This document shows positions 1,911 to 63,664 of a DNA stretch of 64,000 nucleotides, in pieces. This DNA is from Terramyces sp. JEL0728 (taxonomy: Eukaryota > Chytridiomycota > Chytridiomycetes > Rhizophydiales > Terramycetaceae): assembly GCA_027603945.1 (NCBI GenBank), contig JADIIU010000021.1, positions 1-64,000 of the forward strand. The letters are read 5' to 3'. The notes under the pieces were generated by a model that saw only the letters and a list, made by a program, of their open reading frames with translations, was not told where the DNA came from and searched no databases. The position numbers and the translations under genes are program-made. Position 1 is the stretch's first letter; each line of letters starts with the position of its first letter.

Positions 1911-4900
1911 TTACCAATCATATTCAAACCGTTCCAGCTGCTCAAGATTCAGATTAACGTCCTTTTGAACTTTTTTGCGCATATAGAAAATTGGACAATC
2001 TTGCGATGTGCATAGTACTTCTTGGACAAGCGATCCTTGGCAAGCTTGGCACTGGGTCCATAGCTGTGCGTAAAGTTTGCTATTTTGATCGAATTGGTGG
2101 ACAGTTTTGCTGTAGAGTTCCGGGAGTTGTTCTTCACAGTGGTCGCACACTGCCTTTTTTGTTTTCAGGGGAGTTTTGCATCCCATACAAGTATTGCTCT
2201 TGATGGCAAATTTCATCAGTGCTCCGCTGGTTGGTGCTGCAACCGAAACTGTACGTGTGTGATTACCAACTAGATTAAATAAAAATACCCAACAAGGAAT
2301 TGGCTTTTTCTCCCATCACAGGTTCAAAGATACGCATGAGAGGTTTAGACAACTGGTTGTCCAAATAATACTTTGTGTCAATAGGCAAATTGTTTTCAAG
2401 CACATAAATCGGATCCTCTGCCTTTTCGTAAGCCGCTGCTGCTTTGGTTCCTTTAATAATAACATAGGAAACACGATCGCCAATTGCAGGTGCAGATCCA
2501 GCATCTCTTTTACGCATCCGTTCAGCCAACTCATTGTGCGCTTGTTTGGCGGCATACTCTTGTTTGCCCAAAGCCTTTGAAATAACAAGCAACGATAAAT
2601 CCACTTTGTTTTGCAGCAAATCGGCAATGGTTTCCTTTACATATTCAACCGCACCTTCACGATCACGATCTATTAGCAGTTTGCGCAAACAAGTTTCAAT
2701 GACAATAGAAACAAGTCTGCAACTATCTCTACGCACGGTTTCAATCCCTTTGGCGTCCATTTTGTCGTGCTTGTCAGGCTTGGTCCAGTATAATCCAGCA
2801 TATCTCTTCTTGTTGATTAGCAGGTATGGGAAATATACTTTTTCAAAATCAAGGTTAATGGGACGCTTGAATTCCTTTGTTACCAGCTCAGCAGCTTCTC
2901 TCCCTAGTCTCATTGCTTCCTCAACTCTGTCAGTCCCAAACTTAACCATGATTGAATCAGTATCGCCGTAAATGACTCTGGCATCGTATTCATATCCATT
3001 TTCAATTGTATACTGTGCTTCTACTACCTGTTTGGATTTTTCAATCATCACTCTGCCAAAGGCGGTTACACTACTACTAATCGCTAACAGCGGAAGTTTA
3101 CCAATAGTAGCGCCAGTGAAACCATACACAGAGTTGGCACTAATCTACATTAGGAAAAAGCACCTTGAGTGCGAGTTGTCTGCCATCCAACACAGCCCTC
3201 TTGAACGGATCGCTTTCTTTTTTCAAATCACTCTTGGCCTTCTTACGGGCTTGAAGTAAATCTTCCAAAATAGTCGGTAGCAATCCTTTTCGGACACTTG
3301 CTTTCAAAAAGATATCTAGATAAATAATAAATCACCATTGTTTGGAGTTACAATATAGTCATTTTCAGTCAATCCAAATCGGGCCGCGTGAGACTTGTCT
3401 TGGATCCAAGAAGAATAACATAGATTGTGCGCCATCATAATCGATGGATACAAACTGGTGAAATCCAATGTGGCAATAGGAACCTGGTAGAACCCTTTCT
3501 CGGGTTCAATTACAGTCGCACCTTCATACTGTTCATCGGTACCTTCAATTTCCATTGCTGGAATCACCAAGCCCTCGGATACAGCTTTACGGAATAGCTG
3601 TGAGACGACTTTAATTTGCTGCCCTCTAGTCAAGAGATAGTTAAAGTTGACACCAGTTACACGAGCCATTTCAATATAATTGATTACAATCATTAGTTTA
3701 TCAATCAATCTCTGGGGTAGGTATGCATCCTTTAGACAGTAAACAGCCAGTCTCTTTCGCGTTTCTTCATTTCCATTTTGAAGGTCAGTGATAATAGAGT
3801 AATGTACGTCCTCTTTCTGTTCGCCAAGGAAATGGGCAGAAACAGAATTAAGCGAGTAACTTCTTAGTTTATGATCTCTTTGCATGTACATGAGCACATC
3901 CAGTTGAATACGTCCATCGGTGTTGATACTCTTTGAATTTCTAGTTCCGTAGGCTTTGGAAGAGAATTGTGTATCTTTGGCCACAGTTTTAATATTGTTA
4001 ATTCTACCAAGATATGGAAAGTTATCCAATTTCAATGCAATCGCGCGGTCTAATAGGTATGGCAAATCGAAACCATTAATGTTATAGCCTAGATTACCAA
4101 TAATTACCGGTAAGGATATCAGGATCAGCTTCTCTGATAAATCTAGCCCATTCCATCAGTAAATCTTGTTCATTGTCAAATGACAGTACGTGGCTTCCAG
4201 GTATATGCGCACAAGATCCAAGAGTAAAGATATTCTTGATTAATGGCTTTGATTGCCCTTGTACGGTGATAATATTGGCAATCTGGATCACAGGGTCAAT
4301 TGCAGGGTCAGGGAAAACCCCTTTTCTGCCAGCACATTCAATATCAAAGGACAAGATTCGTAACGGCGCAATTTTGCTCCACTCTTCCTCAGGCTGATGT
4401 GCAATGATATCCTTGATGTTTACATCGACTTCGTACTGGCAGTTGCTGGTGGTCTTTGCAGTTGTATAGTTTCGTAGTTCGACCCAGCTCATTCCTTGAA
4501 TTTGCGTGTCAATCATGAATCGCAACGGGTACGGAATATTGGATTCAAAAGTTTGGAAGCAGGATACCTGTCCTAAAGAAGGGACATTGAAGCCATCTTT
4601 GAACGCTCTCTTGCATGGAGCAATAAACGATTGCATTCTTTCTTAGATATTCAATACCTTAATTTGATCAAGAGAAACATTGATTTTGTTTGATATCCAT
4701 AAATATTTGCTTTATCTTTAATCTCTACAGAAATGACATTCTTTCCTCCAATTTTAGCTTTTGGTATCCTGGAATTTAGTGCAGCCTTGTTAATAATTAG
4801 TTACATCCAGAGCACTACTGAAAGCTGATATATGAGCAAAGGTAAAGCCAGATGGAGCTGGAATATAGAGGTAAGGAAATCCACCATGGACATGGCAGAG

Positions 4901-5059
4901 GACCGAATGCCCTTCTTCAGTGATACCAAACATGCGAATTAGTGATTGCTCGCCAAACGACCTGCTGCCAAGGTAATCTTCCACCTCAATTTGCTGGAAT
5001 ATTAACGGTTTATTCGTATCTAGTTTTTGAAACGGTCTTTTCCATTCCTGATCTGACAT
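1911..5059 (-). CDS. POL3: DNA polymerase delta catalytic subunit
   Basis: Catalytic subunit of the replicative polymerase delta, acting in the nucleus on the lagging strand and in repair. Seven exons join in frame to 1010 residues, the usual family length. Introns: 4786-4804, 4638-4657, 4089-4107, 3316-3335, 3145-3163 and 2270-2288, all 19 or 20 nt. The 3'-5' exonuclease motif (FDIE, residues 225-228), polymerase motif A ([10 protein letters not shown], 513-522), [11 protein letters not shown] and motif C (YGDTDS, 665-670) are intact. The C terminus keeps two cysteine modules: a CxxC pair plus CDHC (zinc), then CQAC and CTSQDC (iron-sulfur binding, joins the B subunit). The start at 5059 gives the normal N terminus. 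Exon joints restore conserved strings such as [12 protein letters not shown], so the model is firm. Confidence 0.97.
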
Positions 5060-5197
5060 TTGAATGACAACTTTCGGACTCTGCTTGGATCAAGACTCTG
5101 GACAAGCCAAAACATACCGCTACACCTCTCCGATCACAAGTCATGTTGGTGCTCGTAACTTTTTGGTTCAGCGAATGTACCGCATGGAAGGTATATA

Positions 5198-8977: not shown

Positions 8978-11389
8978 ATGAGTAGCAATTCTAATAAATC
9001 CAAACATGTTAAAGTAATCATTAGAACCAGGCCAACCTCTGCATTCGTCCAGGATCTAATTCAATTTGGAGAAGATAAAAAAGTGTGTAGAATTAATGAT
9101 AGGGCGTACATATCCATATTCCAAAGAATGAGGAATGGGGCTATATCAATAACCAGCAAGAAAACTGGGACTTTAAATTCGACAAGATCTTGCATAACGC
9201 ATCGCAAGAAACCATGTACGAGGAGTGCGGTGTGCCGGTTATAAAGAGCGTCTTAAGCGGATACAACGGTACTTTTCAATAATATCAGCAACCGTATTGG
9301 CTTATGGACAAACAGGTGCAGGGAAAACCTTTACCATGACTGGAGCTTCCGAAAATTACAAGCATAGAGGTATTATTCCAAGGGCCATCACACATTTATT
9401 CAGAGAAATCGATGACCAGGTCAACCTCGCATTTACTGTTCGTGTCTCTTACATGGAAATATACAACGAGCAGATAATAGACTTGCTGTCGACGTTAAAT
9501 GAAGATAATGCGTTTACGGGTGACATGTTGACTGTTGCGGAGGACAAGAACAGTAGCTGTTTACTAACAAGATTCAACTTATGTCAAAGGATTGACCGTC
9601 AAGATTGCCAATAATGAAGAAGAAGCCTTGAATTTGCTGTTTGAAGGCGAGACCAATAGATCCATTGCAGAGCATCAGCTAAACAGAAACTCTTCGCGCT
9701 CGCACTGTATATTTACCGTGTATGTTGAATCAAGGTCTAGGGTTGAATCTTCTGAAAAAGTATTGACGGCAAAATTGAATCTGGTTGATCTTGCAGGTTC
9801 TGAAAGACTATCGAAAACAGAAACTAGCGGGATCACTCTAAAGGAAGCCATGTGTAACTATATATTAACTTGGATATCAATAGATCACTGACTTACTTGG
9901 AGCAGGTGATTATCGCACTGGCAGACAAGAAGAGAGAACACATCCCATTCAGACAATCCAAAATGACCCATGTGTTGCGAGATGCGTTAGGCGGAAACTG
10001 CAACACGCTCATGATTGCAAATATCTGGGGACAAAAAGAAAATATCGAAGAAACAATTTCAACGTTAAGATTTGCTACTAGAATGATGTGTGTTTCACTC
10101 TCGCCTGAAGTGAATATTCAATACGACCCTTTGGCACTGATTAAAAAGTATGAAAAGGAAATCAAGGAGCTTAAGCAAGAGCTGTCGATGCACGATACAC
10201 TGGCAAACAGATCTCATGTTCAATACGAAGCTTACACAGAGGCTCAAAGGGCAGAACTGGTAAAACAAATCAAAAGTTTTATTGAAAATGAGATGGAAGA
10301 GCCAGAGATTATAAATATCAGACATATTCGGGAAATGTTGGTTGTTTTTAGATTGCTGTACAAGAATTTGGAAGGAGAGTATGAAAGTGGGAAACCCAAA
10401 GCTGGTGTTCCGCCGCCAACAGCAGATCCAAACCGCGAAGGCAGTAGCGTAAGAAATATTAAAGTTAGCAAAACCGTAAACCAGCTGTCGTAGAAAACGA
10501 AAGAGATGAAGGTGGAGTGGGCGACGTTGAAGGCGCAGGGTTTGGCGTTGGTGTAGCGCCGTTAGGAAAGAATGCCAAAGTTTCCAATGTCCAATTCCCA
10601 AAACAACCAGCCCATAAAAAGAAAGCTACGCACCATGATGAAGGAGAGCAAGTTCTTGAGGTGCAGCTCGTTAACATTAGCAACCAGATGATCAAGATCA
10701 ATATGCTCAACAAGGAGTCCCAAACAATTTCGCAAGAAAGATTCCATTGTCGAGAGCCGAGGAATTTGAAATTTTCAAAAGAAACAAAGGAGCAGAAATG
10801 AATCGCATCTTGGCCGAAAACAAATGTACCTATATTTAATGCAGTGATCCTCAAGACTAAAAAGAAACAAGCCAGAGAACTCGCGGAAAATGTCAATGAC
10901 ATTAAGCACCAAATCGATGAACTCAAAGCAAAACTAGGAAACAAAAAAATTACGCAAAGTGATGAGAGTAAGCCAGAATTCACGCTAGATAGCCAAATTA
11001 TTATAGATCAGGAGGAATTCAACGATATCACGCATTTAAAGAAACTCAAGGACGATTACAAGAAAATGTACGAAGCACTGAAACCGCTCCGGTCTGATAT
11101 TGAATATTGCCACAGACTAACTGATCAGTGCCGTCAGAAATTGATGACAGAGTTTGAACAGTGGTACGACTCTAGTTTTGGGCCAACGCAATCCGAACAA
11201 GCAAAAAATGGTGACGACGTGTTGGATATTGGTGAAAAGTTTGATCGCTTGCAAATGGAACGCATGTCGCTTGAAGATCCAGACTCGCTGCCATTCTACA
11301 ACGCGAAAAAGAATTCTGACCGTCGAAACGTAAGAGCTGTAAAGAGAGGACTAGCCCCTGTAAAAATAGCTGCTGCAAAAGCTAAATAA
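8978..11389 (+). CDS. KIF9: kinesin-9 (KIF9-like) flagellar motor
   Basis: Plus-end microtubule motor of the kinesin-9 family, known from ciliary axonemes. Eight exons give 757 residues, close to animal KIF9. Canonical introns: 9083-9102, 9269-9288, 9553-9571, 10449-10468, 10661-10680, 10826-10844. The motor domain (residues 8-340) has the P-loop GQTGAGKT (97-104), NSSRSH, and DLAGSE. The tail matches KIF9 along its length, including AEEFEIFKRNKGAEMNRIL, EEFNDITHLKKLK and the C-terminal SLPFYNAK. One junction is odd: 20 nt must be removed at about 9850-9871 to restore the DINRSL switch II helix, but no GT-AG pair fits there; AT-AC or GT-TT boundaries would. This could be a non-canonical intron or a sequence error. 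Confidence 0.95.
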
Positions 11390-14307: not shown

Positions 14308-17300
14308 ATGAATTCCACCAGCCAAAATTCAGACGCACAACTAATAGATTCAGCGGTAATAGTATTCGTCCCATTCATTTTCATTCCAGTATCAATTCTT
14401 GGATTCCGGCTATTCAAATATTTTTATAGATTATACAAAGCAAAGTTATATGGAATTGAATACGCCAAAGAAATGCTGCAAAATCCCTTGAAGCAGTTAG
14501 GCTTGCGTGCGGATGAAATTACAACGAGCAAAGCAAATAGAAAGAGATTAAAAACGCAACTGAAACTCGAATTGAAAAACAAGATTCAGAAACAGGAGAG
14601 TGATTCGTTATTAGGAAGAAAAGTTATTGCTGCTGAACAATACTTTGAAGTATTGAAAACGCACTCGATGAAGACTTGGTACGATATTCTATCCCCATCT
14701 GCAGTCCGTACTTTCTTGGAGACTTCAAAGTATGCTCGATGGTGGATGTTTTTGCAGTTGGTTGTCACAATACTCTCAATAGGAAACTATATCAGTCTGA
14801 CTTACTTGACAAATTCCAACAACATTGATGGCGAGAGTATCATTAAAACTATGGATATGATCTACCCAATCGTGATTATCATTGACTACGTTCTTGGATT
14901 CTACATTTCAGAAGATAAACTAAAGTTCTATTGCAGCCCTATCGCGCTGATTAGCTTACTGTCGATAGTAACCCCGTATGTCAATCTAATTGCGGAAACT
15001 CCAACAAAATATATTTGGCTTTTGGGATTCGTGCGTATATTTAGAGCAATCCGGCTGCTAAAGATTTACGAACTACTAAGCTATGCTCAAACAGAGACAG
15101 CAAGGCAGTTGACTCTATTCGCTTTGAATTTCTTTTGCTTTATTTTTTTCTCTAGTAACTGGCTCTAATTGTAGCTTCAATCATCAATGCAACTGAAGAA
15201 TTACATTTTGCTTTGGAAGATGCTTCAATGAAACATTGGCATGACGCCTTGTACTACATTATTGAAATATTTAGGTATACTCTGATTAATTTAGTGGGAC
15301 AACGTGTGATTTGGTTCCGACAAACTACATTTCGCGAGCTGTTATGACTGTTCTTATTCTAATAGCCATGGTTTATATTCCAATGCATGTTTTCAAAGTA
15401 ATAGAGTTATTCAACGGCAAAAACACGTTTCAAAGAAATCCATTTAGGCCAAAGCGCGGCAAATGCCATGTTGTTGTAACTGGAGTGCTAGACTACAATT
15501 CTATCCTCATCTTTTCCAAGGTACTGCCTATTTAATTAGATGTTCTTTACTTTTGACGCTGACAGCACGATCGTGTTTCTTTTCGATGCACCACCAACTT
15601 TGAAAATGCGAAATCTACTGGGGAACCCATTGTACCAGTCAAGAATAAAGTATATCCAAGGTGACACTCTGAATCTTGATGATCTCAATCGAGCTGTTGT
15701 ACAAAAAGCAACAGCACTGTTTGTTCTTGGGGACAATAAATGCCAGAAAAACGGAGTGTACGACAATATTGAAACAAAATTACTGCAAAAAGCAATGTTT
15801 ATCAAAAGGAATTTTATTGGGATACCTATCTTTGCTCAAGTAAATGAATTGAAATCCAAGGCAATCTGTAAAGACTATGGTGTCGAAGTAGTAGTTTGTC
15901 TAAATGAATTAAAAGGGGGGTTGTTTGCCAGTAACTGCGTTTATCCTGGTTCACAGACACTGGTTACAAACTTGTTCCAAACGTTCAACAACTTTGACTT
16001 TTGTCCTTCAAAAGAAAAGTGGACCAAAGAATACCAGTGTGGATTGGCAAACCAGATACACATTCTCAAAGTACCTTTAGGATTCGTGGGATGCAGATAT
16101 ATTGTGCTCGTAAAGGAAATGTACCGATCAAAGAACATTCTCATTATTGGACGTGGAACAAGAGAAAAGAAATTCATCCCTAATATCAAAAGAGGCTATA
16201 TTCTGAATGAAGAAGATACCCTGTATTGCATTACCGATGAATCTGAAGAGTCGTTAATGCAAGTTGGACTCGAATATGAAGATAAATTCCAGAATACAGA
16301 GAAAAAGCATATTCATTTGGACATTGATGAAATTGCAAAAACATCAGTGATATCTGCTCCCTCAATCAGTGCTCCTTCAGTAGAATTCTTGCATAACCCA
16401 TTACCATCACGAACAAACTCTGCATTCAACTTTTTACCTGAAAAATTGCAAGATCATATAGTACTGGCCGGAAACTTTAATGTAGAGTTGGTGAAAATAG
16501 TCGTTGGAAAGATTAAAAAGTGGAACGCTGAGATCCAAATATTGTTAGTCTATAGCGGGAGTTCAAAAATGGACAATTCTTGGAAAACCATTTTCTCTCA
16601 ACCTGGCGTGTATGTATTAACCGGCCATCTTTGTATTAATGCAATAGTGGAAAAATCAAACCTGAAGGCATGCAAGCGGCTGGTATTGTTTTCGGAATCT
16701 ACCGACCCAGAAACTATTCTCTTGGTGAAATTGTTGCAAAGCTATCACCCTCATGTGAGCATGATGGTGGAAGTGTTTGATGGGTCTACTCTAAAGTATT
16801 TTGGGAACCAATCGTGGGAAAATGATATTGAACATGTTAAAACAAAAACGTTGCTCAACAGCTGCTCTTTGAATATCAGCGAACGCAAATTCTACTACCA
16901 TTCAACAAGGACTAGAGTAGAGCAAGAATCTTTGCTATCTCGGCTGTTTAAATTCTTTTTTGCAAAAGAGTCATTACGAAATAACGACGACAGTGGGGAG
17001 CAAAGCGATGTTACTGATATGTTTTTGAAAAGAATGGCTGAAATGAGCAACAGCGATGAAATTGGACATTCAACGACCTTTCAGTTGGAGTCTACGTTTG
17101 CTTCGGGTAAAACATCAACAAGCACATCCTCTACTGGATTACTCGCGCATTCCTACTTTAAACCATACCTCACAGTAGTCATAAAAAGCCTCATTGACCA
17201 GATTCAGCTAGTCCGAGTTGAAACCCAATTTGTTGGCAAATGCTACTTGGAATTGTTTGACAAACTGATTGAAAATGGCAAGATCCCACTTGGATTGTAT

Positions 17301-17399
17301 AGGTTCAATTTAGAGGCAAACTATGTCTACACAAATTGCCGAAAGGGCGATACTGTGTGTCCCAATGATCAAGTGTATATCCTGCAGCTCTCCCAATAA
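14308..17399 (+). CDS. BK/Slo-like channel with RCK domains, copy 1
   Basis: Six-transmembrane channel subunit of the Slo (BK) type, 1010 residues in four exons; introns 15155-15174, 15275-15294, 15521-15539. An extra N-terminal helix (S0, residues 15-33) is followed by S1-S4 (about 143-257); S4 carries regular arginines (FVRIFRAIRLLK). RCK1 begins near 375 and RCK2 covers the rest; the C terminus has the Slo-type GLYRFN and YVYTNCRKGD segments. The pore is unusual: residues 316-321 read SGTTCD where potassium channels have TVGYGD. The aspartate-rich calcium bowl of animal BK is absent, although the PFASG-like strand after it is recognisable. Channel architecture is secure; ion selectivity and calcium gating are not. 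A tandem paralogue follows 48 bp downstream. Confidence 0.9.
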
Positions 17400-17447: not shown

Positions 17448-20400
17448 ATGTCAACGAACGAAACATCTGTGGTTTCCAGTGATGAACCATTCATTGACGC
17501 AACGGTCTTGTTAATTTTTCCGTTTATATTCATACCCGCAACGATTATTTCATTCCGTCTTATAAAATACTTTTACAGGTTGTACCTCGCGAAGCTGTAT
17601 GGAATAGGTAATCTCCAGTTAATGAAAGCCAATGCCAATGAACTGCTGCAAAACCCTCTAGCACACCTTGGGATAGGAAAGCAAGATACCACATTTACAA
17701 AGGAAATTCGGAGGATACAAAAAACTAGATTGAAACTTGAATTGGAGAATCAAAAACGAAAGCAAGAAAACGATACATTATTGGGAAGAGGGAGGTTTGC
17801 TGCACCAATCATTGCAGCCGAGCAATACTTTGAAACCTTGAAATCGCATTCAATGAAGACTTGGTACCAAATCCTCTCACCGACTGCAATTCGTAAATTC
17901 CTTGAAACTTCGCAGTACGCAAGGTGGTGGATGTTTTTGCAATTGGTAGTAACTATATTGTCCATTGGCAACTACGTTAGTTTGACGTACTTGGCAAACA
18001 CAACCGATATCAACGATCAAAACATTATCAAGACGTTGGATATGATATATTCTTCAGTGTTCCTTGTCGATTATTTTCTCGGATTTTATATTTCTGAAGA
18101 CAAGTTGAAATTTTACTGCACGCTGATGTCGCTGATTGACCTGCTGTCTATCATTACCCCATACATATACTTGTTTGTCGTTAGTCCTACAAAGTTTGTT
18201 TGGTTTATCGGTTTCGTCAGGGTGTTTAGGGCTGTTCGTATTCTTAAAATTTACAGGATCCTTAGCTTTGCTCAGACAGAAACAACTAGGGAGCTGACAG
18301 TGTTTGCATTGAATTTCTTTACCTTTATTTTCTTTTCTAGTAACCTGTTTTTAACCTAGCTTCTCTGATCAATGCCACCGAAGCGTTGGATTTTGGTCAA
18401 GCTCCGCCTACTATGAGAAATTGGCACGACGCATTGTATTTTATTATCGGCACATTCAGGTGCGTTTTATTTGATGTAGTACTGCCGGATCAGATCTAGT
18501 TCCGACGTCCACAGTTTCGAGAGTGATTGTTATGATTCTGATTATTATGGCAATCATCTATATTCCTTGGCAAACTTCCAAGGTGATTGAAGTATACAAT
18601 AGTCAAAACGCATTCCAGAGAAGCATATTCAAACCGAAAGACAACATCTCGCACATTGTGATTACCGGGGACATTAATTACAGCTCTATTGTCAATTTTG
18701 CTCGAGTACTTTTTCGTTAACATTAGCAATTCTTTATGTTTGACGATGAGAGCTCAATTGTAATTCTGGCAGATAAACCGCCGACTTTGGAAATTAGAAA
18801 ACTACTGAATCAACCATTATACCGATCGAGATTACACTACCTTCAAGGTGATAACCTGTCACTATCAGATTTAAATAGAGCAGTGATTCAAAATGCCACA
18901 GGGTTCTTTATATTACAAGATACGTCTAAACCAGATAAAAACTTGGCAGTTAATTTGAGTGATGCTAAAACATTACAATTAGCAATGTTAATCAAATCTC
19001 ATTTTGCAGGATTGCCAATTTTTGCGCAAGTTTTTGATGAAAAAACCGCAAACTTGGGACTAATCAGTGGTATCGAAAGGGTTTGTTGTATCAATGAATT
19101 GAAAGCTGGATTGGCGGGAGTTAACTGCTTACAGGCTGGCGCGCAAACCCTGGTGATGAACTTGATCCAAACCTTTAGGGATTACGAAACAGCCTACTAT
19201 AGTGAAAGATGGATTAAAGAATACCAATGCGGAATGTCCAACCAATTACAATCTTTAAAAGCGCCATCTGGGCTGATTGGAGTTAAATACAAGGACATGG
19301 TAAAAGAAATATTCAATAGTTTCAATACGGTTGTAATAGCAATAAAAAGGGAGAGTGCCGGGGATCAGTCTGTAAACATACAATTCAGTCCGGATAGGAA
19401 TTACAGATTAAACGACGAAGACATATTGTTTTGTGTGGGTGAGGTTACAGATGAAAATTTGTTACGGATGCATTTGTACTATGAGCAAAGCTACAAAAGA
19501 CAGGAATTGCAATATATTGATTTAGAATCAGAGATGGAAAAGAAACCCGTTACTCCACTGGCTGTTACTAAACCCAAAGAATTGCAGTCCAGCTTTGAAG
19601 AGTCAGATTTGAAATCAGAAAACATCCCCAGTCTTGAAAATCATATTGTTGTGTCGGGACAAGTGCCTCCATCTGTCATATATTCATTCATTCAACATTT
19701 GCGAAACAGCAACTCTCCAGAATCAGAAACAGCAGTTGTAGTTGTAAACGATGGAGTTGTTGAAAAGGATATTATTGTATGGGAAAACATCATCAAGTTC
19801 AGCAACGTTTTTGTTCTGACAGGACACCTGAGTTTTGATTCAATTGTAGAAAAAGCAAGCCTTTCAAAGTGCAAACAGTTGGTCCTGTTTTCAGAATCAA
19901 ATGATCCGCAAACAATCTATCTGGTAAAACTTTTGAAGAGTAAAATCCCAAATATCCAGCTAATGGTTGAACTATTTGACGGATCAACCATAAAATACTT
20001 TGTTAAAAACATCTGGGAAACGAATTTCGAACACCTGAAAACAAAAACCATCGTGGACAACTGCTCTCTAAATGTAAGTGAGCGTATTTCATACTACAAC
20101 TCATCAAGATCAATAACAGCGGAGCAAAGCCAGTTTGTGCGAGTATTTAAATTCTTTTTTACCAAAGAATCACTTAAACAAGACGATGAGATTAATCTTA
20201 TTGATAAAAAGAAAGTTGAAACTGGTGTTACAGACATGTACCTGCAGAAAATCACCGACATGAACAATGTGGATGAAATACAAAATTCGGCTCATTACCA
20301 GGCCGAATACCCTTTTGCAACCGGATCAATATCAACGACTACGATTGCTTATGCCCTCTTATCTCATTCGTATTTCAAACCGTACCTTATTGATATCACA

Positions 20401-20613
20401 CATGGGCTTATTGATAATATTCAATTGCTCGAGTTGAAGCATGAATCTATTGGGATCACGTACCAGGAATTGGTTGAAAACTTGGTGGATGTGGGCTATG
20501 TCCCATTAGGTCTGTCAAGATACAATATCAATAGCAGTTACGTGTATACTAATTGCCGTAAAGGCGACATCGTGGCCCAAAATGATCAAGTTTATGTGTT
20601 GAAAATTCAATAA
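17448..20613 (+). CDS. BK/Slo-like channel with RCK domains, copy 2
   Basis: Tandem paralogue of the preceding gene, 1034 residues in four exons. Introns 18340-18359, 18460-18479 and 18706-18726 (20, 20, 21 nt) sit at exactly the same codon positions and phases as in copy 1, so duplication followed intron gain. S0-S6 and two RCK domains are present; the S4 reads FVRVFRAVRILK. The pore segment at residues 331-336 is STAGSD, again not TVGYGD, and one residue shorter when the flanking Ser-Thr and Asp-Leu-Val-Pro are aligned. Divergence from copy 1 is substantial but spread along the protein, with no stops. The promoter must fit in 48 bp or the two genes may be read together. Selectivity is unknown. 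Confidence 0.9.
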
Positions 20614-34158: not shown

Positions 34159-34304
34159 TAAACTTGTCTTTTTTGAGATGAACTGAGAATATTCTACTCA
34201 ACCATTACTTAATATTGAACTGGATTATTCTCGGATTGCTGGATCATACAAGCTCTTTCCAGAGAAACTGCACATCAAATTGTCCGAACGAATATTTTGA
34301 AAAA

Positions 34305-36289
34305 ATGAAAAGTACATCATGGGAGAGGAAAGTTCCAAATGGTGTAAATATGGAGAGTATCAAGCAACCATCTGCACAACCAATATCTAGAAATCCAAAC
34401 GAATCAGCGAAAGAGAATCGAAATAAATCCCAGGTTAATCTAACAACAATATTCAAACAGAAAATCAAGAATGATAAACCGCAAGTGGTAGCTGCAGAGT
34501 CCAATCTATCACCACTCCACATGCATGCACCGCAGTTGGCAAAGAAATCGCAGGAAGGAAACGGAACTGAAACTCAAAATCGCGCTGAATCTAGAGGGAT
34601 TTTCCATCAAAAACGTGAGGTTACAACTGATACTCGACTACGGCTATCTGAACAGCAAGTGGTTAAACAAGAATCAAAACCACAAGATCCAAAATACAAG
34701 TATGGCACCAAGCCGAAACTTTTGAACAATCCAATGAAATTTACTTTGTTCCAAAAAGGATCTGGGGTTAAAGCGGAACTGAAAGGAACTAAATTGCGTA
34801 TAACTGAACCGGCGATACTCAAAAGAAAAGCAACAGGAGAGGATTCAAGAACAAAACAAGCGAAAACAGAACCAGATGGGTTAATTCCTAATCACTCCTT
34901 GAACCAATATCAGCCAGCTGAATTTACCTCTTCAGTGAAAAAAGACAGAGATTCTAAACCCAAATACGAAAATGTTTTGTCTGGCGAGCAGGAGCATATC
35001 ATGTCTCTGGTTTTTGCTGGAACGTCATTCTTTTTCACTGGTAATGCTGGAACCGGAAAGGTAAGTGCTATTGATGCTAGTCTTTTGTATTAAAGGAACT
35101 GGTAAAGAGGTGGAAAAGGCTTGGGCACAGCGAAGTAAAATATGCATTGACTGGTAATACTAATCTAAAATAGCGGCTACCGGCGTTGCTGCTTACAATA
35201 TAGGCGGATGCACTTTACATTCTTTTGCTGGCATTGGGCTTGGAAAGGGAACCAGAGAGCAGTGCGTTGGATACCTTAAAAAATCACTTTCGAGTATCAA
35301 CAGGTGGAAAAGTTTAAAACTGTTGATTATTGATGAAATATCAATGATTGATGCAGACTATTTCGACAAATTGGATTTCATTGCTAGACATATAAGAAAC
35401 TCTCCAAAACCGTTTGGTGGAATCCAAATTATTCTTTGCGGGGACTTTCTTCAACTGCCTCCTCCTTCAAGTAGCTCAAAATTTGTGTTTGAAAGTACAG
35501 GTACTTTGCATCTAAAGTAGCTTGGAAAGACTTGGATTTGCAGATGGTATGCTTGAAAAAGATATACAGACAAACAGACCCACTTTACATGAAAATTTTA
35601 AATGAAATTAGGATAGGTAGAGTGACTGACGAAGCAATGAAGATTATTAAGGGCTTAGCAGAGAACAATATCGAAAAGAAATTCAATGTATGCACAAAGC
35701 TATTTCCTACCCGCCAAGAGGTACAGAAGGAAAACACGGGCCAATTAGCAAAACTTGACGGTGAACCCAGGTCGTTCAGCGCCAGTGACAGTACTGACGA
35801 CGAAAAGCTTGTTCAGAAACTCAACGATACACTATTGGCACCGCCAAAGCTGGTTCTTCGAATAGGGGCTAGTGTAATGTTGATTAAAAATATTTCTGGT
35901 AAAACGCTGTACAATGGCGCGATCGGAACCGTTAAATCATTCGAAAATGAGGGGATACATGTTGAATTCCAAGGCTATGGCGTGGTATCTATAACCCGTG
36001 AAAACTTTGAATTATCAAGACCCGACAAGACAATTTTAGCCAGTCGGTGCCAATTTCCACTTATTCTTGCGTATGCATTGTAAATTAGATTGACAATAGG
36101 AGTATTCACAAATGTCAAGGACAGACATTAAAGTCTGTTTATGTGGACCTGAAAAATATATTTGAAAATAGCCAAACTTATGTCGCACTATCCCGTTGCA
36201 CATCATTAGATGGATTGCAAGTAAAGAACTTTGAACGTTCAAAAGTTAAAGTTGATCGAAAAGTAAAGCGAATTAACGTAGGTGATTGA
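34305..36289 (+). CDS. PIF1: PIF1-family DNA helicase
   Basis: 5'-3' superfamily 1B helicase acting on G-quadruplexes, replication forks, telomeres or mitochondrial DNA. Five exons give 634 residues; introns 35061-35080, 35154-35173, 35501-35520, 36080-36099, all 20 nt. The first 230 residues are basic and disordered, with QVNLTTIF resembling a PCNA-binding box. The helicase core has Walker A GNAGTGKS (246-253), [13 protein letters not shown], Walker [15 protein letters not shown], and the C-terminal [10 protein letters not shown] and [10 protein letters not shown]. The start at 34305 is the first ATG of the frame. Nuclear versus mitochondrial use cannot be decided. Motif order and splice joints make the assignment firm. 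Confidence 0.93.
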
Positions 36290-36454
36290 ATTTTACAAGA
36301 ATCTGGGATTACTAGAATGAGAAATATATTAATGAAATAAATTAGCAAAATGTCTTTCTGTGTTGACGGCTCGTCGATTCTGGCAAAGAAATAATTACAC
36401 TCTTCAATTTTGTTGAAATAAACCCTGATTCATACATGATTTATTGCGAAAATA

Positions 36455-39400
36455 CTAGCCGTCCGAGTCATAATCTGAATTATCGCTATTTTCCTCTGGT
36501 TCATCTCTAGCAAGCACTTTCTTTTCCTTCTTTTTCGTCTCGATGCCTTTCTTTGCTAATAGTTTGGCAGTACTTTTCTTTACTTTTCTAGTTCTTTTTG
36601 GAGTGGTAATAGGTGACTGATCAGATGAGCAAGGTGTCGATTTTCCCAGCTCTGCGATATTCTTTGAACACAAGGTATTCACTTCAGCATGGCTCAACAG
36701 CGTGTTGACTGCTTTTGCGAAATCCACACCCATCTTTTCCAAATCTGGGATTTGCACTTGCATACCCTATAATTAGTTTGGTCTACTCTTTTTTCGCCAA
36801 AGTCCATCCCGCAATATGTAGATTCAAGAGTAAAACTATTGATTATTTTGAATTCTCTCCGCAATACCACTCTAGCTGTAGATTCTTTTGATTTCTCAAT
36901 GTTAAAGCGACAAGCATTAAAATCAAATATCGAAGACTGTTGAGCCAGTATCTGCGGGAATATTTTTTCTAGTCCTTCAATTTCGGATCCAGGTGGATTT
37001 TCGCAGCCAAATATAAATGCGTTCTTTTTCCTTGAATGGCCATGAAAGTCGCAAGATAGCTATAATTAATCCAACCGTACTAAAATCTGGCAATTGAGCT
37101 TTATCAAGAAACGGTACAACAATTTTGTCCAAAATATAGTTGGCGAGAGCACCCTTGAGGGCGATTTCCAGTGTCTGTTCAGATCAACTCCCGCTAGTGA
37201 ACATCTGTGGCTTCCGTTGATGGTGCCGTCTGGATTTAACATAGGAACCACTTTAAATACACAGTTTCTCCTCAGATTAACAGCAGTATCATCGTTGCTA
37301 AGTAGGAATTGAATCAATCCATTCATCATATGGCTAGAGTTACTTTCTCCAGGATGAACTCTGGCACTCAGCAATACATATTTTCTATCCTTGATGGGAA
37401 TATCACCTACTGTAAACTAAACACTTACTATTTACAAAATCTGTGATGGTTAGTAAAATACAATCATTTCCTCCCAAGGTTCTACATAATAGAGCTCGTC
37501 TGCATATATTTTTGAATTTAGAATTATTGCTAAGCTGGTATAATGATCTTTGAAGTTCAGAATAAGTATAAGGATAGTGATAAGCAAAGTAGCATGTATC
37601 ATTTGGGTTTTTAAAAGTGATTGACATTACCAGGGTAGAATACGTATTTGCATCGGTAGCAGCAGAATCTATCGTGCTTGGATCTGCTCCTGTCTTTCTG
37701 TAATGATTCCTACTATTAATTGCAAAAACTTTATATAAAATACATAGTCTCCGACTCTTTTCCATCCAGGCTCCTCTACGCAATACATTACGGGCTGCAT
37801 TCCGTTATTAAACTGGCTAGCCGGCTTGCTCAAGTTTAAAATGTTAAATTTGTATGTTGTGTTTGCAGCCATTCGCTTAACAGAAAAATAGAACCACTGA
37901 TTATGTTTGCCAAGTCCCGAATTGATATCTGATTCAATGAGTAAATCATATTCAAACTGTGAAATTTTGACTGCTAGCTGTAGATTCCCGCTTTCGAATC
38001 TGGAATCGAACATCAGTGTTCTACATAAAAACGGATTTACCCATCAATAACATTGGAGTTTGGAGATTTGGAGTAATCCATCACGTCATAAACAATCGAT
38101 CCTTTTGGAGACTGTTGAAACATCCTCGCTGTTTGATCAAACATGACCTTTCTAACTTATATTAACACCAAGGTACCTAAAAGTCATTGGCGACCTCCTC
38201 AGCAACTGTTCCGAATCGCAACCAACCAAATTTCGGCAAACAAAGTGTTTTCCAGGCGCCATTGGTTGCACATGTCTGACACTTATGTTGCAATTTGCAA
38301 GGTCGCATTTTGCTATTGGTAGATTTTCAAGGTAGGATAATTCTGGGCAGAGTTTTCTGAATTTCGATTGAACAAGATCTTGGATTGATTGTGGTGGTAT
38401 TCCCTGAGCCTTTGCCTTTCCTCTGCTCAGATCCTGGGCAAAAACATCGATTATATTTTCATAATCTGTTTCCAAATCTTTTAGATGATCAGATTGGGTT
38501 AAATTGGGTGAGGTCTTTGGTCTTTTTCCTAAGAATGGCGGAGTAAGGGTTTCTGTATACAAGTTTGGAGCAGATTCAAAGTGAACTGGAGCATTCATCT
38601 CATAGCTTTTTTTTGCTACTGGTTCGACTGGTAGTGGAAACGTTCTCTCGACATGGAAATTCATAAAAGGTAAATCAGCTTGACCTGCAGCCGAACGCAA
38701 AGCTCCAACTAGCAAGGAAGATACTGAATTTACAGACGTTAGTGACATGTTGACACACTCAGAGGCTACGGTTAATCATTTTTACTTTGTAACAGGGTAT
38801 TCAATAAATCAGACAAGATTTTGGAGCCGTCTGCACTATCAAATGCTTTTTTGCCGAATTCTTGTCAATATACAATTACCATAATCATTAAGGACTTTAA
38901 CAGCTTTGAGCGAGGCTTTTTGCAACCCTTCAAAAACTGAGCAGCAATGAGTTAGGAAAAATTTCATCCCAAATGTTTTTACAATTTCCGAAGCAGTTGA
39001 TTTTGATTTGGCTAGATAGGCCATCAACTCAACAGCGTTGTCCAATTTTGACAAAGTTACTTGTTGAGCGCTGTTTTTGAAGATACTGTCAATCAGGGGG
39101 ACCAAGTTGCTCTTTTGCAAAATTGACAGGTTATTTTCTTGTTAAATCCAGTGTACCGTTTTTAGAAGCAAATATCCTCAGAATGTTGAAGGTAATCGTC
39201 ATTAAGGCGAAATCCTTTTTATCCACGCTGCGCTTTAAAGTTTTGATGGCAATCGGGACAGCGCCATGAAGTCTAGCTAAAAGGGCAAGCTTTGGTTCTA
39301 AATAAAATAAAGAATTACCATACTTGGATAATTTACATAATATTGTAAAAATATTCATAAATATTTCATCTGTTCGCTGTAGAATATTGAGGGAAACATT

Positions 39401-40203
39401 GGATATTGAAGAGTTGTTTAAATAGTCGTGGTGGATATTGTAGATGGTTACTAGCAGTATTTGACATAGATTTTTCTTTGTCATCATTATCATATTGCTC
39501 GAAGCACTCTCGCAAGTTGTAATCAGCCTCAATAAAAGGTTAGTAATCACAATTGAAGTATCGATATCTGATATTTCCTGTTATCAGTGGCGCTAGTACC
39601 TTTAAACATCTGAATAAAACAGTGACGTTGGTGTTTGACTTTGAAAACAGAGATTTTTGAATTGGCGATTCTTCAATTAGGATTGTTTACCAGCTATTAT
39701 AGTTGAACTGTCCTTGTCAATTAATCTTTTCAGATCTAAACAGCTCCGTATTATTTTCCTCTTAGCTTCACTCGAGATTGCGGATTTTTCAAAGCTCGAT
39801 CCTCCACTTTCTTCCAAATTTTCAATTATTGAAGAAGACAAGGAAATCCTCGACATTTCAGATATTAATGTCCCAGATTCGTCTCTCGACGAGGCGATGC
39901 TATTCCTTTCGGACAGCTGAAACGCGGTCGAATCCTTATGCGAAGCCAACTCTTCCTTTGCTGTGTCCTCGTCTAATGTTTGTGAAATTGAAATCAGTAT
40001 TCTCAATACCGGTCCCGGAACATTTGGAGCCGTTATAGCTTGCGTGGAATCCCTTGCCTTTCTAAGGTTATATTGAATTACAATTTGGGCAAGTTGATGG
40101 ATTTTAGCTTTGGAGCTTTGAGTAGCGGTAAATTTGCCTGCTGATCAGGTATTGGTTTCTTTTGTTTTTCAGCTCGCTTTGCCAGAGAACCCTTTTTTAT
40201 CAT
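36455..40203 (-). CDS. AGTPBP1: CCP1/AGTPBP1-type cytosolic carboxypeptidase with ARM region
   Basis: Metallocarboxypeptidase that removes C-terminal or side-chain glutamates from tubulin, known from cilia and neurons. Thirteen exons give about 1167 residues; introns 40062-40081, 39671-39690, 39578-39599, 39138-39156, 38861-38879, 38766-38785, 38152-38176, 38021-38040, 37710-37729, 37410-37428, 37060-37080, 36767-36786. An armadillo-like helical region (to about 470) precedes the CCP N domain ([10 protein letters not shown]) and the catalytic domain: zinc ligands in VHPGES and DFHGHS, then NPDG, DLNR and the catalytic Glu in TLEST. The stop near 38772 lies inside a consensus intron, so the ARM and enzyme halves are one gene. 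The 25-nt intron could instead be 19 nt (38148-38166), changing a few residues. Confidence 0.93.
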
Positions 40204-40294
40204 GGGTAAGTTTAGTTTTGGTAAAAGCTCGCGTCGTCTAATGACATCACCTTAACGTGGAACAAGCTCAATTGAAATTGATGATGACTAGGAT

Positions 40295-44673
<4,379 letters not shown>

Positions 44674-45019: not shown

Positions 45020-45935
45020 ATGGAAAAATATCAGAAAATAGAAAAGCTGGGAGAAGGTACTTTGAATATTAAAAAGGGACCTACGGAATAGTGTACAAAG
45101 CCCAGAATAAAGAAACAGGAGCCGTCGTTGCGTTAAAGAGAATCCGGCTGGACAATGAAGAAGAAGGAGTCCCATGCACAGCGATAAGGGAAATCTCTCT
45201 ATTAAAAGAACTCAAGCATCCAAATATAGTCAAATTGTACGATGTGATTCATACCGAAAAGAAACTCACATTGGTTTTTGAATACTTGGATTCTGACTTG
45301 AAGAAATACTTGGACAGCAATTCAGGTAATTTTTGTTAATGAAGGTGATATATCAGTAAATACAATTCAGCCGTTGATGCATCAGTTACTGGAAGGAATC
45401 GCCTACTGTCATGAACATCGGGTCTTGCATAGAGATCTCAAACCCCAGAATTTATTGATAAACAAAAAGATGGAATTGAAGCTGGCGGATTTTGGTTTGG
45501 CCAGGGCTGTTGGAATTCCAGTGCGGGGGTATTCGCATGAAGTAGTGACGCTGTGGTATAGAAGTCCAGATGTGCTTATGGGATCCCGCAACTACTCGAA
45601 TACTATAGATATGTGGTCTATAGGTACTTTTAATTAACCCAGGCTGTATTATGGCTGAAATGGCAACTGGACGGCCATTGTTTCCTGGAATATCGATTAG
45701 GGATCAATTATTAAAGATATTCCAAACTCTAGGGACACCAAATGAAATTATATGGCCGCGAATCTCTGAAATACCAGATTACAAGCCAGATTTCCCAATT
45801 TATCCTGCTGTCGAGCTGTCCGCAATACTACCTAAATTACAAGGAGATGGGATTGTGTTGATCAAGCGGATGTTGGAATATGCTCCTGAGAAGCGCATAA
45901 GTGCTGAGATGGCGTTGACTAGTAATTTTTATTAA
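45020..45935 (+). CDS. PHO85: cyclin-dependent kinase, Pho85/CDK5 group
   Basis: Serine/threonine kinase that works with cyclins in nutrient signalling and polarity. Four exons give 285 residues; introns 45057-45076, 45326-45344, 45624-45642. The glycine loop [11 protein letters not shown] is restored only by splicing; catalytic [15 protein letters not shown] and the APE-equivalent SPD are present. The sequence [26 protein letters not shown] and [19 protein letters not shown] matches the Pho85/CDK5 group better than CDK1. The cyclin-binding helix reads PCTAIRE instead of PSTAIRE. The C terminus is a little shorter than in relatives and ends at SNFY. Confidence 0.93.
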
Positions 45936-52365: not shown

Positions 52366-53243
52366 TTATATTGAATCATGCTTGAAACGCCAATATGATT
52401 GTCGGACAGGATCAATTTCTTCAAGCTTCAAACACATGTTCTTGTACTCTTCCTTCATTCCTTTTTCCTTGTAGTAATCTAAAAATACAGACAGCGCAAA
52501 TCTATTATCCTTGTACTCTACAATGTCATTAGAATCGAATTCAGTGTATAATAATACCCCTTTGTAGTAATTCCATGGCGATTCATTATTTGGTGCCAGT
52601 TGAATCTTTCCAAGAGTATAATTAATTTCCTTTTTTACTACATCTGGAGTAGGGTTTCTTGAAATAATAAAGAAACGTTGGTTCCACGCAGAGTTGTTTC
52701 TGACATCATCAGCAATAATTCTGTGTTAGAAACATCAACCTATCAAGTTCAAGCAATTCTTGATCCCATAAATCATATGTCTTTACCAACCATTGGCGGT
52801 AGCTCCAGGCGTGGTAGTTCTTTCCATCATTTTCAATCATTGCATTTACAAAATCCATTTCGTCTTTAGGGTTTGATGCTTTCTCAGCAAGCGCTTGCCT
52901 CTGGTGCCATATTTGATACGATTTAGGATTATGGTAAGCCAAGTTGTTTAAAAATATCCATTCTTCTTCAAGTGACGCATCAATCTTCAAGATGGTATCC
53001 AACCTGTACTTCCTGAATTAAAGCATATTACCAAACAGAGTAATGGGAAGCGTTTTCTGTCAATATCTCAGTCGTCAAGTCCAGTGCTCGTTTAGAGTAT
53101 TCCTTTACAGAACAAATAGTGCGGAAATAATCCATACATTTTTTGTAATATGGATCATAGTTGATTGGACATAATGGTGTCGGTCCGTCTTCCTGTAGCA
53201 TTGGAGCCAGGTCTTGGAATATATTGAAATCAATTTTGGACAT
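52366..53243 (-). CDS. RAM2: protein farnesyltransferase/GGTase-I alpha subunit
   Basis: Alpha subunit shared by farnesyltransferase and geranylgeranyltransferase I, which prenylate CaaX proteins in the cytosol. Three exons give 279 residues; introns 53013-53031 and 52721-52739, both 19 nt. The protein starts near DGPTPLCPINYD and carries five prenyltransferase-alpha repeats with the W-x-x-R core: HYSVWKYR, YQIWHQR, YHAWSYRQW, NSAWNQR and ESPWNYY. The third exon was found by splicing, since the second frame ends soon after the intron. It is somewhat shorter at the C terminus than animal FNTA, as in yeasts. Confidence 0.92.
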
Positions 53244-59573: not shown

Positions 59574-59769
59574 TTAGTGGCAAAGAAAAAGTTGGTGCCT
59601 TCAATGATCATGTAGAATCTGATCCAACTGTAAATCTTGCTTACCTCCAGGCAAGACTCAGGTATGGGATAGTGGGTTCAATCGACGAAAATCTTCCAAC
59701 CCTTGCCGTCCAAAATGCTTAGTTGGCAGTATCAACAGGCACAATAGAATTGGATTTATTAAAAACATT

Positions 59770-60204: not shown

Positions 60205-60464
60205 TTTTTGAAAAGATTTTTCTCATGAATTAAGCCACTCTGACTCGATAATAACAGTGCTACTGCAATTGTGATTGCAGGATGTGCTTATTGGTTTAAT
60301 ATTCGCTTCATGTACATGTGCTGCATCGTGCTTGCTTATCGCTAGAGGCAATCGGAAATTCAGAATTAGTGAATCTCAAATCTCATTCCATTGATTACCA
60401 GTATAATATTTGCTGGGGTGTTCAATGTCTGGTTGCATGAAATATTTTTTTCTTTTTTCAAAAA

Positions 60465-60995: not shown

Positions 60996-61013
60996 ATTAT
61001 TGAAAATTTCTAT

Positions 61014-61715: not shown

Positions 61716-61807
61716 TCGTATTTTATAGTGAAACTTTTCCAAACGAAATTTCAAGGTGCACAACGGCTGGCACAAGACATTTTTAAATAACTCTTAAAAA
61801 TAATTTA

Positions 61808-62062
61808 TTATCCTTCAATTGCTGCTAGCACTTCATAACTCTTGGCTGCAAACTTTTTTGTAATTGGGGATTGGATTTCTTCTTCCAGTTGAAACTCTGC
61901 AGATATCGAATCGCATTTAATTATTTTCAACGGGTATAGAGTTGCCTGAGCTAATGGTAATCTTCTTGGGATGCACTTCATGATTTTGTGTATTGTCACT
62001 AATTTTCCATTTGAAAATTGCAATAGAATCAAGAAGGCAGCAACCACAGACCAAACATTCAT
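61808..62062 (-). CDS. small secreted protein
   Basis: An 84-residue protein from the ATG at 62062. It starts with a signal peptide (MNVWSVVAAFLILLQFSNG) and the remainder is basic then acidic, with only two cysteines. No family is recognised. A longer in-frame start exists but would place the signal peptide internally and run the coding region over the shared upstream element, so it was not used. It could be an ER or vacuolar small protein or a secreted peptide. Confidence 0.55.
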   Translation of the reverse strand: MNVWSVVAAFLILLQFSNGKLVTIHKIMKCIPRRLPLAQATLYPLKIIKCDSISAEFQLEEEIQSPITKKFAAKSYEVLAAIEG

Positions 62063-62160
62063 AACAGGACTCTGAAATCTGTGCGCTTTTAACGCGTTGG
62101 GAACAATGGGTTCATCGTGAAACGAGAAAACGGAATATTCCTGGAGAATTTTGGTTCTGC

Positions 62161-62214
62161 TTCCGACTTCATGCCATCCTACCAAGTAAGCCAATGTATA
62201 TCTTTGGCCCATCC
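62161..62214 (-). promoter_or_regulatory. shared upstream element, copy B
   Basis: A 54-bp block near-identical to 55672-55724, in the same orientation and upstream of another minus-strand secreted-protein gene. The core TTGGYNTAYTTGG-like text lies on the minus strand within the match. The flanks on both sides are unrelated, so the conserved part is sharply bounded. Confidence 0.6.
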
Positions 62215-62343
62215 ACGGATCGTGAAACGGTTTTGAACAGTGCAGATTCAATATAAATTGGAATCTTTTAACCTGACCTTTAACATGCTAACTATCTTAA
62301 ACCAGCAAAAGTTGGCAGAACACGATATTAGAATGGCGATTTA

Positions 62344-63664
62344 TTAAAACAATTTCTTTGTCTCTGGACCTCCTAAACTATTACTTCGTTTCATTCCTAC
62401 ACCGCCTAACGTATTCCCAAACAAACTGGTATTCAAAGTTGGCACAGCTGCTGTTGCCGGTTTGGTATTTAGCGAAAACGCAGGTTTTGCATCAGGCGGT
62501 TTGTTGAATAGGGACTGAGCACCAAATTGAGATTGATTCATCTGTTGTGGGGCGGGTTGTTGCACAGTTGGCTGGAGATACTGTGCTAATTGCGAGTAGG
62601 ACTCTCTATTATTTTCTGGGACAATGCTGCCATAATACATTTCATGGAACTGTATATACGTATCTTTTGCTTTAGTAATAGAGTCATGCACTTGCGCAAC
62701 TTTTCCTGCAATTGACATAAACGATTGATATTGATTCTTTATAATTTCTTGAATAACTTCATTAATTCAAATTACCTGTTGCATTGATCTTTGAAGAATG
62801 CGAGCTACGCAAATTTAATTCCAACTCTTCTATATTTTGTCTACATTGGTTCATTCTCATTTCCAAATCGGCAGTGAAATTCAAGAAATAACTATTGTTA
62901 ATTATAAATACTTTGAATATGCGTCATTAGTCTGGATTCCCTTATTGAAATCATTTGTTGGGGAGGACTCAATAAATCTGGCTACTAAATCGGAATTTCT
63001 TAGTTCATTGGCAACTAGACTCTTCAATTGGTCAATCACATACACATCTCTTTGTAATATTGTCTTTAATCCGCTCAGTTTCTACTATTAACACAAATTA
63101 CTCTTGCCGTCTCTTCAGTTTCTTTAACAATTTCCTCCAGATCAGTTTCCAAAGTAAGATTTGCAATTGATGTTGATACATTAGTCTGCGAGTTTATAAA
63201 TTTATCGATTGTATCTAACTGCGCTTGGATATCTGCAGGAAGTTCCGAATACTTTGTTGTAAGAGTAATACTAAATTAGCTGGTTATTACGGTGCCTGTG
63301 CATTTTGAGTTTGTCCAAATCCGGTTTGTCCAGTACCTTTTTGGCCAAACATCCCTCCAGCAGCCGGTTGAGTAGTGTTTGTATTATTTTGTCCAAATAA
63401 ACTATTATTTGGCTGATTTGTGTTACTATTTTGACCAAACATTGCTCCAGCAGCTGGTTGGGTAGCAGTGTTTCCAAACATTCCTCCAGCAGCTGGTTGA
63501 GTACCAGTGTTTCCAAACATTCCTCCAGCAGGTTGTGCTGATTGCGCGTTTGCACCAAACCCACCAGTATTTTGCTGGGTCTGTTGTCCAAATCCAAATG
63601 TATTCTGAGCAGGCTGTCCAAATCCAGAAGGTTGATTTTGATTTTGCTGGCCAAATCCAAACAT
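62344..63664 (-). CDS. NUP49: nucleoporin NUP49/NUP58-like
   Basis: FG-repeat nucleoporin of the central-channel Nup62 complex. Five exons give 413 residues; introns 63271-63290, 63082-63101, 62892-62911 (20 nt) and 62757-62775 (19 nt). Residues 1-125 are GFG/MFG repeats (GFGQQ, GGMFGN, SLFGQN). Residues 125-320 are the coiled-coil region, with KYSELPADIQAQLDTID and YFLNFTADLEMRMNQCRQNI after splicing, which is the NUP58/45-NUP49 family order. The C terminus has more SLFG motifs and ends ETKKLF. The start at 63664 leaves only 18 bp to the divergent ArsC-like gene. Confidence 0.92.

Follow-up and report, generated by a model that had tools for sequence, protein, structure and literature searches.

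Debate over the minimal size of spliceosomal introns, and over the collapse of an intron set to one size, has so far drawn on ciliates, on reduced parasites and on a relic nucleus. Introns of Stentor coeruleus are 15-16 nucleotides (nt) long, with the branch nucleotide 10th of 15 and a tail of 5 nt (PMC9505925); those of mikrocytids measure 16-17 nt (PMC10245619), those of chlorarachniophyte nucleomorphs 18-21 nt (PMC10245619, PMC5014332), and Paramecium and Nyctotherus also have very short introns genome-wide, but these are ciliates and the introns are about 25 nt long (PMC5014332). For fungi, a survey of 644 genomes gives Cryptococcus neoformans, with many short introns of mean 63 bp, as its short example, and its excerpted text gives no shorter mean (PMC8476143). 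We describe introns of about one third of that fungal length in the chytrid fungus Terramyces sp. JEL0728 (order Rhizophydiales, family Terramycetaceae), whose assembly comprises 15.0 Mb in 231 contigs. The window analyzed is a stretch of 64,000 nt (contig JADIIU010000021.1, positions 1-64,000), to which 22 other 10-kb stretches were added, two of them (L022 and L023) alleles of one another, for a total of 284 kb. Reading frames in this DNA are interrupted by short segments, and we assign a probability of about 95% to the reading that the segments are U2-type spliceosomal introns shrunk near a working minimum. Our results support the view that they bear every sequence mark of genuine ultra-short spliceosomal introns and that they are widespread in this genome.

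These introns approach the lower size limit known for any organism, and the usual fungal reports give far longer ones. Like those of Stentor, they have GU-AG ends, a near-fixed branch position and a canonical U2 small nuclear RNA (snRNA) with the sequence GUAGUA, and they carry U rather than G at position +5, as does the commonest Stentor intron, which begins GUAAUU. They differ from the Stentor introns in a strongly conserved branch site (YTRAY), in a donor arm that is longer by 4-5 nt and in having a fungal host; moreover, 93 of 133 predicted genes contain at least one intron, against 18% of genes in Stentor (PMC9505925). The mikrocytid introns are likewise very short, uniform and conserved, but they number 224 and occupy a reduced parasite genome served by a small spliceosome (PMC10245619), whereas extrapolation to the 15 Mb of Terramyces suggests about 15,600. 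The nucleomorph introns cover nearly the same length range, but a nucleomorph is the relic nucleus of an endosymbiont, with more than 800 introns (PMC10245619, PMC5014332), and the Terramyces introns belong to a main fungal nuclear genome. The first-pass annotation of this DNA had listed nucleomorphs, some ciliates and microsporidia as lineages with introns this small; none of these is the source, and mikrocytids should be added to the list. No report of ultra-short introns in a chytrid was found in the open-licence full text of PubMed Central, where subscription papers may be missed, and one chytrid genome paper (PMC13391722) mentions introns once, in a gene-finder setting. The case of a 15-Mb chytrid suggests that introns can reach this size without parasitic genome reduction and without an odd nucleus. 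Terramyces belongs to a chytrid group known for a free-living, saprobic way of life. The best-known spliceosome structures come from fungi and humans, and consequently the mechanism becomes testable in a fungal case.

The length distribution was examined in several ways. We scanned both strands for the motif GTA[ACT] ... TAA[CT] ... AG, without gene models and against a background of second-order Markov shuffles. In the window this motif matched 26 times at 19 nt and 30 times at 20 nt (4.85 and 4.65 in shuffles), and at most 11 times at each remaining length from 14 to 59 nt (about 5 in shuffles). The 210 kb outside the window (21 stretches, the allele L023 being left out) gave 80, 71, 45 and 23 matches at 19, 20, 21 and 22 nt, with 15.0, 17.7, 14.7 and 15.8 expected, and at most 24 at each other length from 14 to 40 nt (about 15 expected). 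Outside the window the lengths of 19, 20 and 21 nt alone are in clear excess, and 22 nt shows a trace; the 21-nt introns, which had first been placed among a minor remainder, are a real third class genome-wide. A frame-joining program, supplied with codon usage and GT-AG ends only and with flat lengths of 12-60 nt, made 33 of its 55 jumps in the window at 19-20 nt. When nine other pairs of edge dinucleotides were substituted there were 0-10 such jumps, and the highest control (GG..TA, 10 jumps) probably represents true introns shifted by one base.

An ab initio gene finder, retrained to include models of the donor, the branch site and the acceptor and again given no length preference, predicted 296 introns in the 133 genes of the 284 kb, at a density of 1.5 per kb of coding sequence. 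The classes of 18, 19, 20, 21 and 22 nt hold 3, 79, 105, 40 and 21 introns, and the remaining 48 are spread over 23-99 nt, some of them surely wrong. The window itself has 74 predicted introns (22 at 19 nt, 32 at 20 nt), and at least one predicted intron of 19-20 nt occurs in 20 of the 22 other stretches. A sharp genome-wide length peak near 15-25 nt, as in ultra-short intron systems, is therefore present across the window and the 22 stretches. The first-pass annotation had claimed a peak at 19-20 nt, with introns throughout, and had proposed the length distribution as a check; the peak is recovered by the motif scan, by frame-joining and by the spliced alignments described below, and the spread by the 20 stretches.

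Spliced protein-to-DNA alignment (flat intron penalty, 10-300 nt allowed, no length preference) identified 33 introns in seven genes of the window, 28 of them at 19-20 nt (13 of 19 nt, 15 of 20 nt, 2 of 21 nt, and 1 each of 22, 25 and 32 nt). Outgroup homologs, with Terramycetaceae excluded, were aligned for DNA polymerase delta (25 of 120 listed), the carboxypeptidase (7 of 10) and the KIF9 kinesin (24 of 120). At 26 places a majority of the homologs that span the site agree, and 22 of these places were counted (polymerase 6, carboxypeptidase 11, kinesin 5). Alignments to one PDB chain per gene add 11: three in a cyclin-dependent kinase (CDK; chain of CDK2), two in farnesyltransferase alpha, four in a PIF1-like helicase (PIF1) and two in an ABCC transporter (MRP1, covering the first half of the gene only). 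Genes and introns are as follows, with the supporting homologs or chain in parentheses.

1911..5065, minus strand: DNA polymerase delta catalytic subunit gene (conserved part), 6 introns (spliced alignments)
2270..2288, minus: polymerase intron, 19 nt (25/25 outgroup homologs)
3145..3163, minus: polymerase intron, 19 nt (25/25 outgroup homologs)
3316..3335, minus: polymerase intron, 20 nt (25/25 outgroup homologs)
4089..4107, minus: polymerase intron, 19 nt (25/25 outgroup homologs)
4638..4657, minus: polymerase intron, 20 nt (21/25; remaining 4 give 50 nt)
4786..4804, minus: polymerase intron, 19 nt (24/25)
8978..11389, plus strand: KIF9-type kinesin gene (spliced alignment)
9083..9102, plus: kinesin intron, 20 nt (21/22)
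9269..9288, plus: kinesin intron, 20 nt (24/24)
9553..9571, plus: kinesin intron, 19 nt (21/24)
9852..9883, plus: kinesin intron, 32 nt, the longest counted (23/24)
10449..10468, plus: kinesin probable intron, 20 nt, edges disputed, uncounted (11/24; others 14 or 17 nt nearby)
10661..10680, plus: kinesin probable intron, 20 nt, uncounted (branch motif fits 20 nt; 21/24 place 11 nt at 10670-10680)
10826..10844, plus: kinesin intron, 19 nt (24/24)
10968..10988, plus: kinesin possible intron, 21 nt, uncounted (4/24)
34977..36289, plus: PIF1-like helicase gene, helicase part (one PIF1 chain)
35061..35080, plus: PIF1 intron, 20 nt (same chain)
35154..35173, plus: PIF1 intron, 20 nt (same chain)
35501..35520, plus: PIF1 intron, 20 nt (same chain)
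36080..36099, plus: PIF1 intron, 20 nt (same chain)
36455..40203, minus: cytosolic carboxypeptidase gene, about 13 introns (spliced alignment)
36767..36786, minus: carboxypeptidase intron, 20 nt (7/7)
37060..37080, minus: carboxypeptidase intron, 21 nt (5/7)
37407..37428, minus: carboxypeptidase intron, edges unsettled (22, 19 or 13 nt), uncounted (7/7 outgroups 13 nt; two Terramycetaceae proteins 22 nt)
37710..37729, minus: carboxypeptidase intron, 20 nt (6/7)
38021..38040, minus: carboxypeptidase intron, 20 nt (7/7)
38152..38176, minus: carboxypeptidase intron, 25 nt (6/7)
38766..38785, minus: carboxypeptidase intron, 20 nt (7/7)
38861..38879, minus: carboxypeptidase intron, 19 nt (7/7)
39138..39156, minus: carboxypeptidase intron, 19 nt (7/7)
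39298..39318, minus: carboxypeptidase intron, 21 nt (6/6)
39578..39599, minus: carboxypeptidase intron, 22 nt (5/6)
39671..39690, minus: carboxypeptidase intron, 20 nt (6/6)
40062..40081, minus: carboxypeptidase probable intron, 20 nt, uncounted (three Terramycetaceae proteins 20 nt; outgroups 29 nt in 2/4)
40295-44402, minus: ABCC-type transporter gene (one MRP1 chain)
43079..43097, minus: ABCC transporter intron, 19 nt (same chain)
43657..43676, minus: ABCC transporter intron, 20 nt (same chain)
45020-45935, plus: cyclin-dependent kinase gene (spliced alignment to CDK2)
45057..45076, plus: cyclin-dependent kinase intron, 20 nt (CDK2)
45326..45344, plus: cyclin-dependent kinase intron, 19 nt (CDK2)
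45624..45642, plus: cyclin-dependent kinase intron, 19 nt (CDK2)
52366-53243, minus: farnesyltransferase alpha gene (one PDB chain)
52721..52739, minus: farnesyltransferase alpha intron, 19 nt (same chain)
53013..53031, minus: farnesyltransferase alpha intron, 19 nt (same chain)

The choice of splice-site dinucleotides was examined in three genes, each aligned to a single homolog. GT-AG was the best-scoring of 8 pairs in every gene, the seven control pairs lowering the alignment score by 5-27% and giving 0-4 introns of 19-20 nt per gene, against 6, 7 and 5 with GT-AG. The first hand count, about 92 introns with 78 at 19-20 nt, has the same proportion as our 28 of 33 (85%); its total is plausible because the ab initio finder, with its 74 introns in the window, recovers only 20 of 27 homology placements (five of the 27 with unsettled edges).

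The introns thus sit where homologous proteins need joins, and they share a near-fixed layout. Among predicted introns the donor is GTA(A/C)TT and the branch site YTRAY, and the two U2-type features of GT-AG ends and a branch site complementary to the canonical U2 snRNA are both present. The branch A falls at nucleotide 14 or 15, with 13 or 14 nt ahead of it, in 173 of the 184 introns of 19-20 nt (75/79 at 19 nt and 98/105 at 20 nt), a fixed position such as ultra-short intron systems have. It is followed by 4-6 nt, mostly 5 or 6, in 177 of the 184, which is consistent with the TAAY motif 3-9 bases before AG noted in the first pass. Introns of 19, 20, 21 and 22 nt differ by nucleotides distributed over both arms flanking the branch A, and of the 248 introns measuring 18-22 nt, 240 use the first AG past it as acceptor. 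Branch scores of 3.9-4.3 compare with 0.4-0.8 in shuffled introns, the scoring model having been trained on the same introns.

The motif is specific in strand and location. Inside gene spans, matches to the scan pattern at 19-20 nt number 171 on the sense and 26 on the antisense strand, and among the 184 introns predicted at these lengths the pattern fits 138. When the score threshold is set so that 157 of the 224 introns predicted at 19-21 nt pass it, spliced coding sequence (195,774 nt) retains 11 matches and its antisense strand 8, with 4.8 (standard deviation 2.0) in synonymous shuffles. Since so few matches are left in spliced coding sequence, the motif at its spacing is nearly sufficient to mark an intron. 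Some of the 11 are probably missed introns, and the avoidance of intron-like decoys in exons was rejected, the matches exceeding the shuffled value rather than falling below it. In-frame stops, present in 39 of 40 predicted 21-nt introns, were also rejected as a translational check on account of a bias in the gene finder, which failed to predict the 21-nt intron at 39298-39318; this intron is stop-free in frame by eye and supported by all six spanning homologs.

The genome has matches to parts of the splicing machinery. The U2 snRNA is canonical (140 bits, GUAGUA present). The U2AF large-subunit family gave a match of 251.7 bits, below the curated cut-off of 310.3 and read across frame breaks, at a locus where GT-AG segments of 19-20 nt with the branch motif are visible by eye. 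The SF1-HH family exceeded its cut-off, the match being divided into two overlapping pieces that lie in different frames.

Several observations weigh against this interpretation. Four well-supported placements (11, 13, 246 and 284 nt) were judged misplaced and left out; with them included, 28 of 37 introns would be at 19-20 nt. The 13-nt placement (37410-37422) is given by 7/7 homologs and the 11-nt one (10670-10680) by 21/24. We reread these as 19-22 and 20 nt, respectively, because acceptor and frame are identical; both rereadings have a donor, and the 20-nt kinesin one also has a good branch motif. The 246- and 284-nt placements lie at the edge of the carboxypeptidase gene, each with 2/2 spanning homologs. 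At a laxer penalty the farnesyltransferase alignment gains three intervals of 25-61 nt, in a weakly aligned end. Two of the 22 other stretches hold no predicted intron of 19-20 nt: L004 (C1:20001-30000) has no predicted introns, and L008 (C20:20001-30000) has 10, none in this class. Both may be repeat-rich or poorly modeled. The allele comparison given below draws on a single 10-kb pair. Removal of the segments from RNA by splicing is something we infer, with high confidence, from genomic sequence. The donor also departs from expectation. The canonical U2-type consensus is GTRAGT, with G at +5, and here G occupies that position in about 14% of predicted introns. This departure weakens the label of canonical donor and not that of spliceosomal intron, because the commonest intron of Stentor is without G at +5 as well.

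Finally, U1, U4 and U6 snRNAs were not found in the genome with Rfam models, in a search whose candidates were only partly scored and which had no positive control; nor was RED_N (a target taken from an excerpt of PMC6692369), again with no positive control. Neither failure shows absence. The first pass had proposed a search for U2 and U6, which succeeded for U2 and not for U6. Two U6 matches (27.4 and 26.9 bits), which at first seemed to be U6 with an altered catalytic triad, are taken as chance because their loci look, by eye, like a VMP1-like coding exon beside a tiny intron. An exact ACAGAGA-based U6 pattern had no match in the genome. A U6 3'-stem pattern allowing one mismatch had 14, of which 12 were inspected and none was U6-like; the matched letters of the other two (C21:92215 and C153:20152) are identical to those of two inspected ones.

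The excluded placements bear on the alternative that survives best, although its chance is very slim: that many of the introns, though genuine, have a greater or smaller length through other frame-preserving splice sites, the figure of 19-20 nt being created by the search. The 11- and 13-nt placements fit this view, as do the first ab initio models, which gave 29-51 nt for several introns. However, alignment to CDK2 without length preference turned two of these, of 35 and 31 nt, into 20 and 19 nt, and the scan outside the window, with its excess limited to 19-21 nt and a trace at 22, argues against a product of the search.

Slimmer still is the chance that the frames are disrupted by mistakes in assembly or sequencing, or by pseudogenes, and that the joins are illusory. 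The genome is indeed a draft, but a set of errors would not have GT-AG ends in common, nor a regularly spaced branch motif or a length of 19-21 nt. After joining, DNA polymerase delta has 94% identity to that of Boothiomyces macroporosus across the full 882-residue query (Kappamyces 78%, Globomyces 77%, Batrachochytrium dendrobatidis 72%). Furthermore, the allelic stretches L022 (C111) and L023 (C199), 98.6% identical, differ by 62 substitutions and 0 indels in 6,624 nt of predicted coding sequence, which again argues against errors or pseudogenes. Their predicted introns (252 nt) have 2 substitutions and two 1-nt indels, one of which makes a 20/21-nt intron pair, and the remaining 2,998 nt have 11 indel events, many clustered. 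These allele contigs also indicate that the assembly is partly unmerged. L032 and L033, considered as a second pair, are not allelic, and a genome search for an allelic copy of window positions 34000-44000 found only pieces at 70-72% identity.

Equally improbable is translational bypassing or programmed frameshifting, in which ribosomes would hop over segments retained in the mRNA. Short frame-breaking segments could in principle be hopped, but these have spliceosomal ends and a branch site complementary to a canonical U2 snRNA, the genome has U2AF and SF1 matches, and the density of about 1.5 segments per kb of coding sequence far exceeds known bypassing. Somatically removed DNA elements, like the internal eliminated sequences of ciliates, would also be short and numerous, but they have TA-repeat ends instead of GT-AG ends with a branch site, and the organism is a fungus not known to have nuclear dimorphism, so that this explanation is just as improbable.

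If the segments are U2-type introns, the major spliceosome would recognize each as a single unit (intron definition) by way of the fixed donor-to-branch arm; a lariat loop of 14-15 nt would form, and the next AG would then be used. With only 2-4 nt between the branch A and AG there is no room for a polypyrimidine tract, and therefore U2AF65 probably contributes little by tract binding; the branch site and the spacing probably carry most of the specificity. In human short introns with a truncated tract, SPF45 replaces U2AF (excerpt of PMC8363638). A broader proposal is tentative, and we consider it rather doubtful: that in Terramycetaceae nearly the whole intron set collapsed to 19-22 nt while donor recognition was remodeled, G at +5 being swapped for U as in Stentor and a fixed arm of 13-14 nt replacing the polypyrimidine tract, so that an intron-rich fungus would have arrived independently at minimal-intron splicing. 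The G at +5 normally pairs with U1 and U6. These two snRNAs may have changed to match the donor, which would explain why both were not found.

The tiny introns appear to be partly in the deposited annotation already, and also to damage it. The deposited JEL0728 carboxypeptidase (P0121) matches the window with an identity of 1.00 (to two decimals) over 1,026 aligned residues. By our alignment 11 intervals are required for it: seven measure 19-22 nt and four 101-156 nt, and two of the latter engulf a pair of tiny introns together with the intervening exon. Published Boothiomyces proteins have similar gaps. The published Boothiomyces polymerase is without the stretch adjoining the 4089-4107 intron, a stretch that Kappamyces, Globomyces and Batrachochytrium have. 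Since the JEL0728 carboxypeptidase and proteins of its relatives are without residues at tiny introns, comparative work on these chytrids may be using damaged proteins.

Two other regions of the window were examined by eye. Tandem paralogs at 14308-17399 and 17448-20613 (plus strand) resemble large potassium channels and have predicted introns at corresponding places, one pair being 19 versus 21 nt. A predicted protein at 32628-34158 (plus strand) has two similar halves and appears methyltransferase-like.

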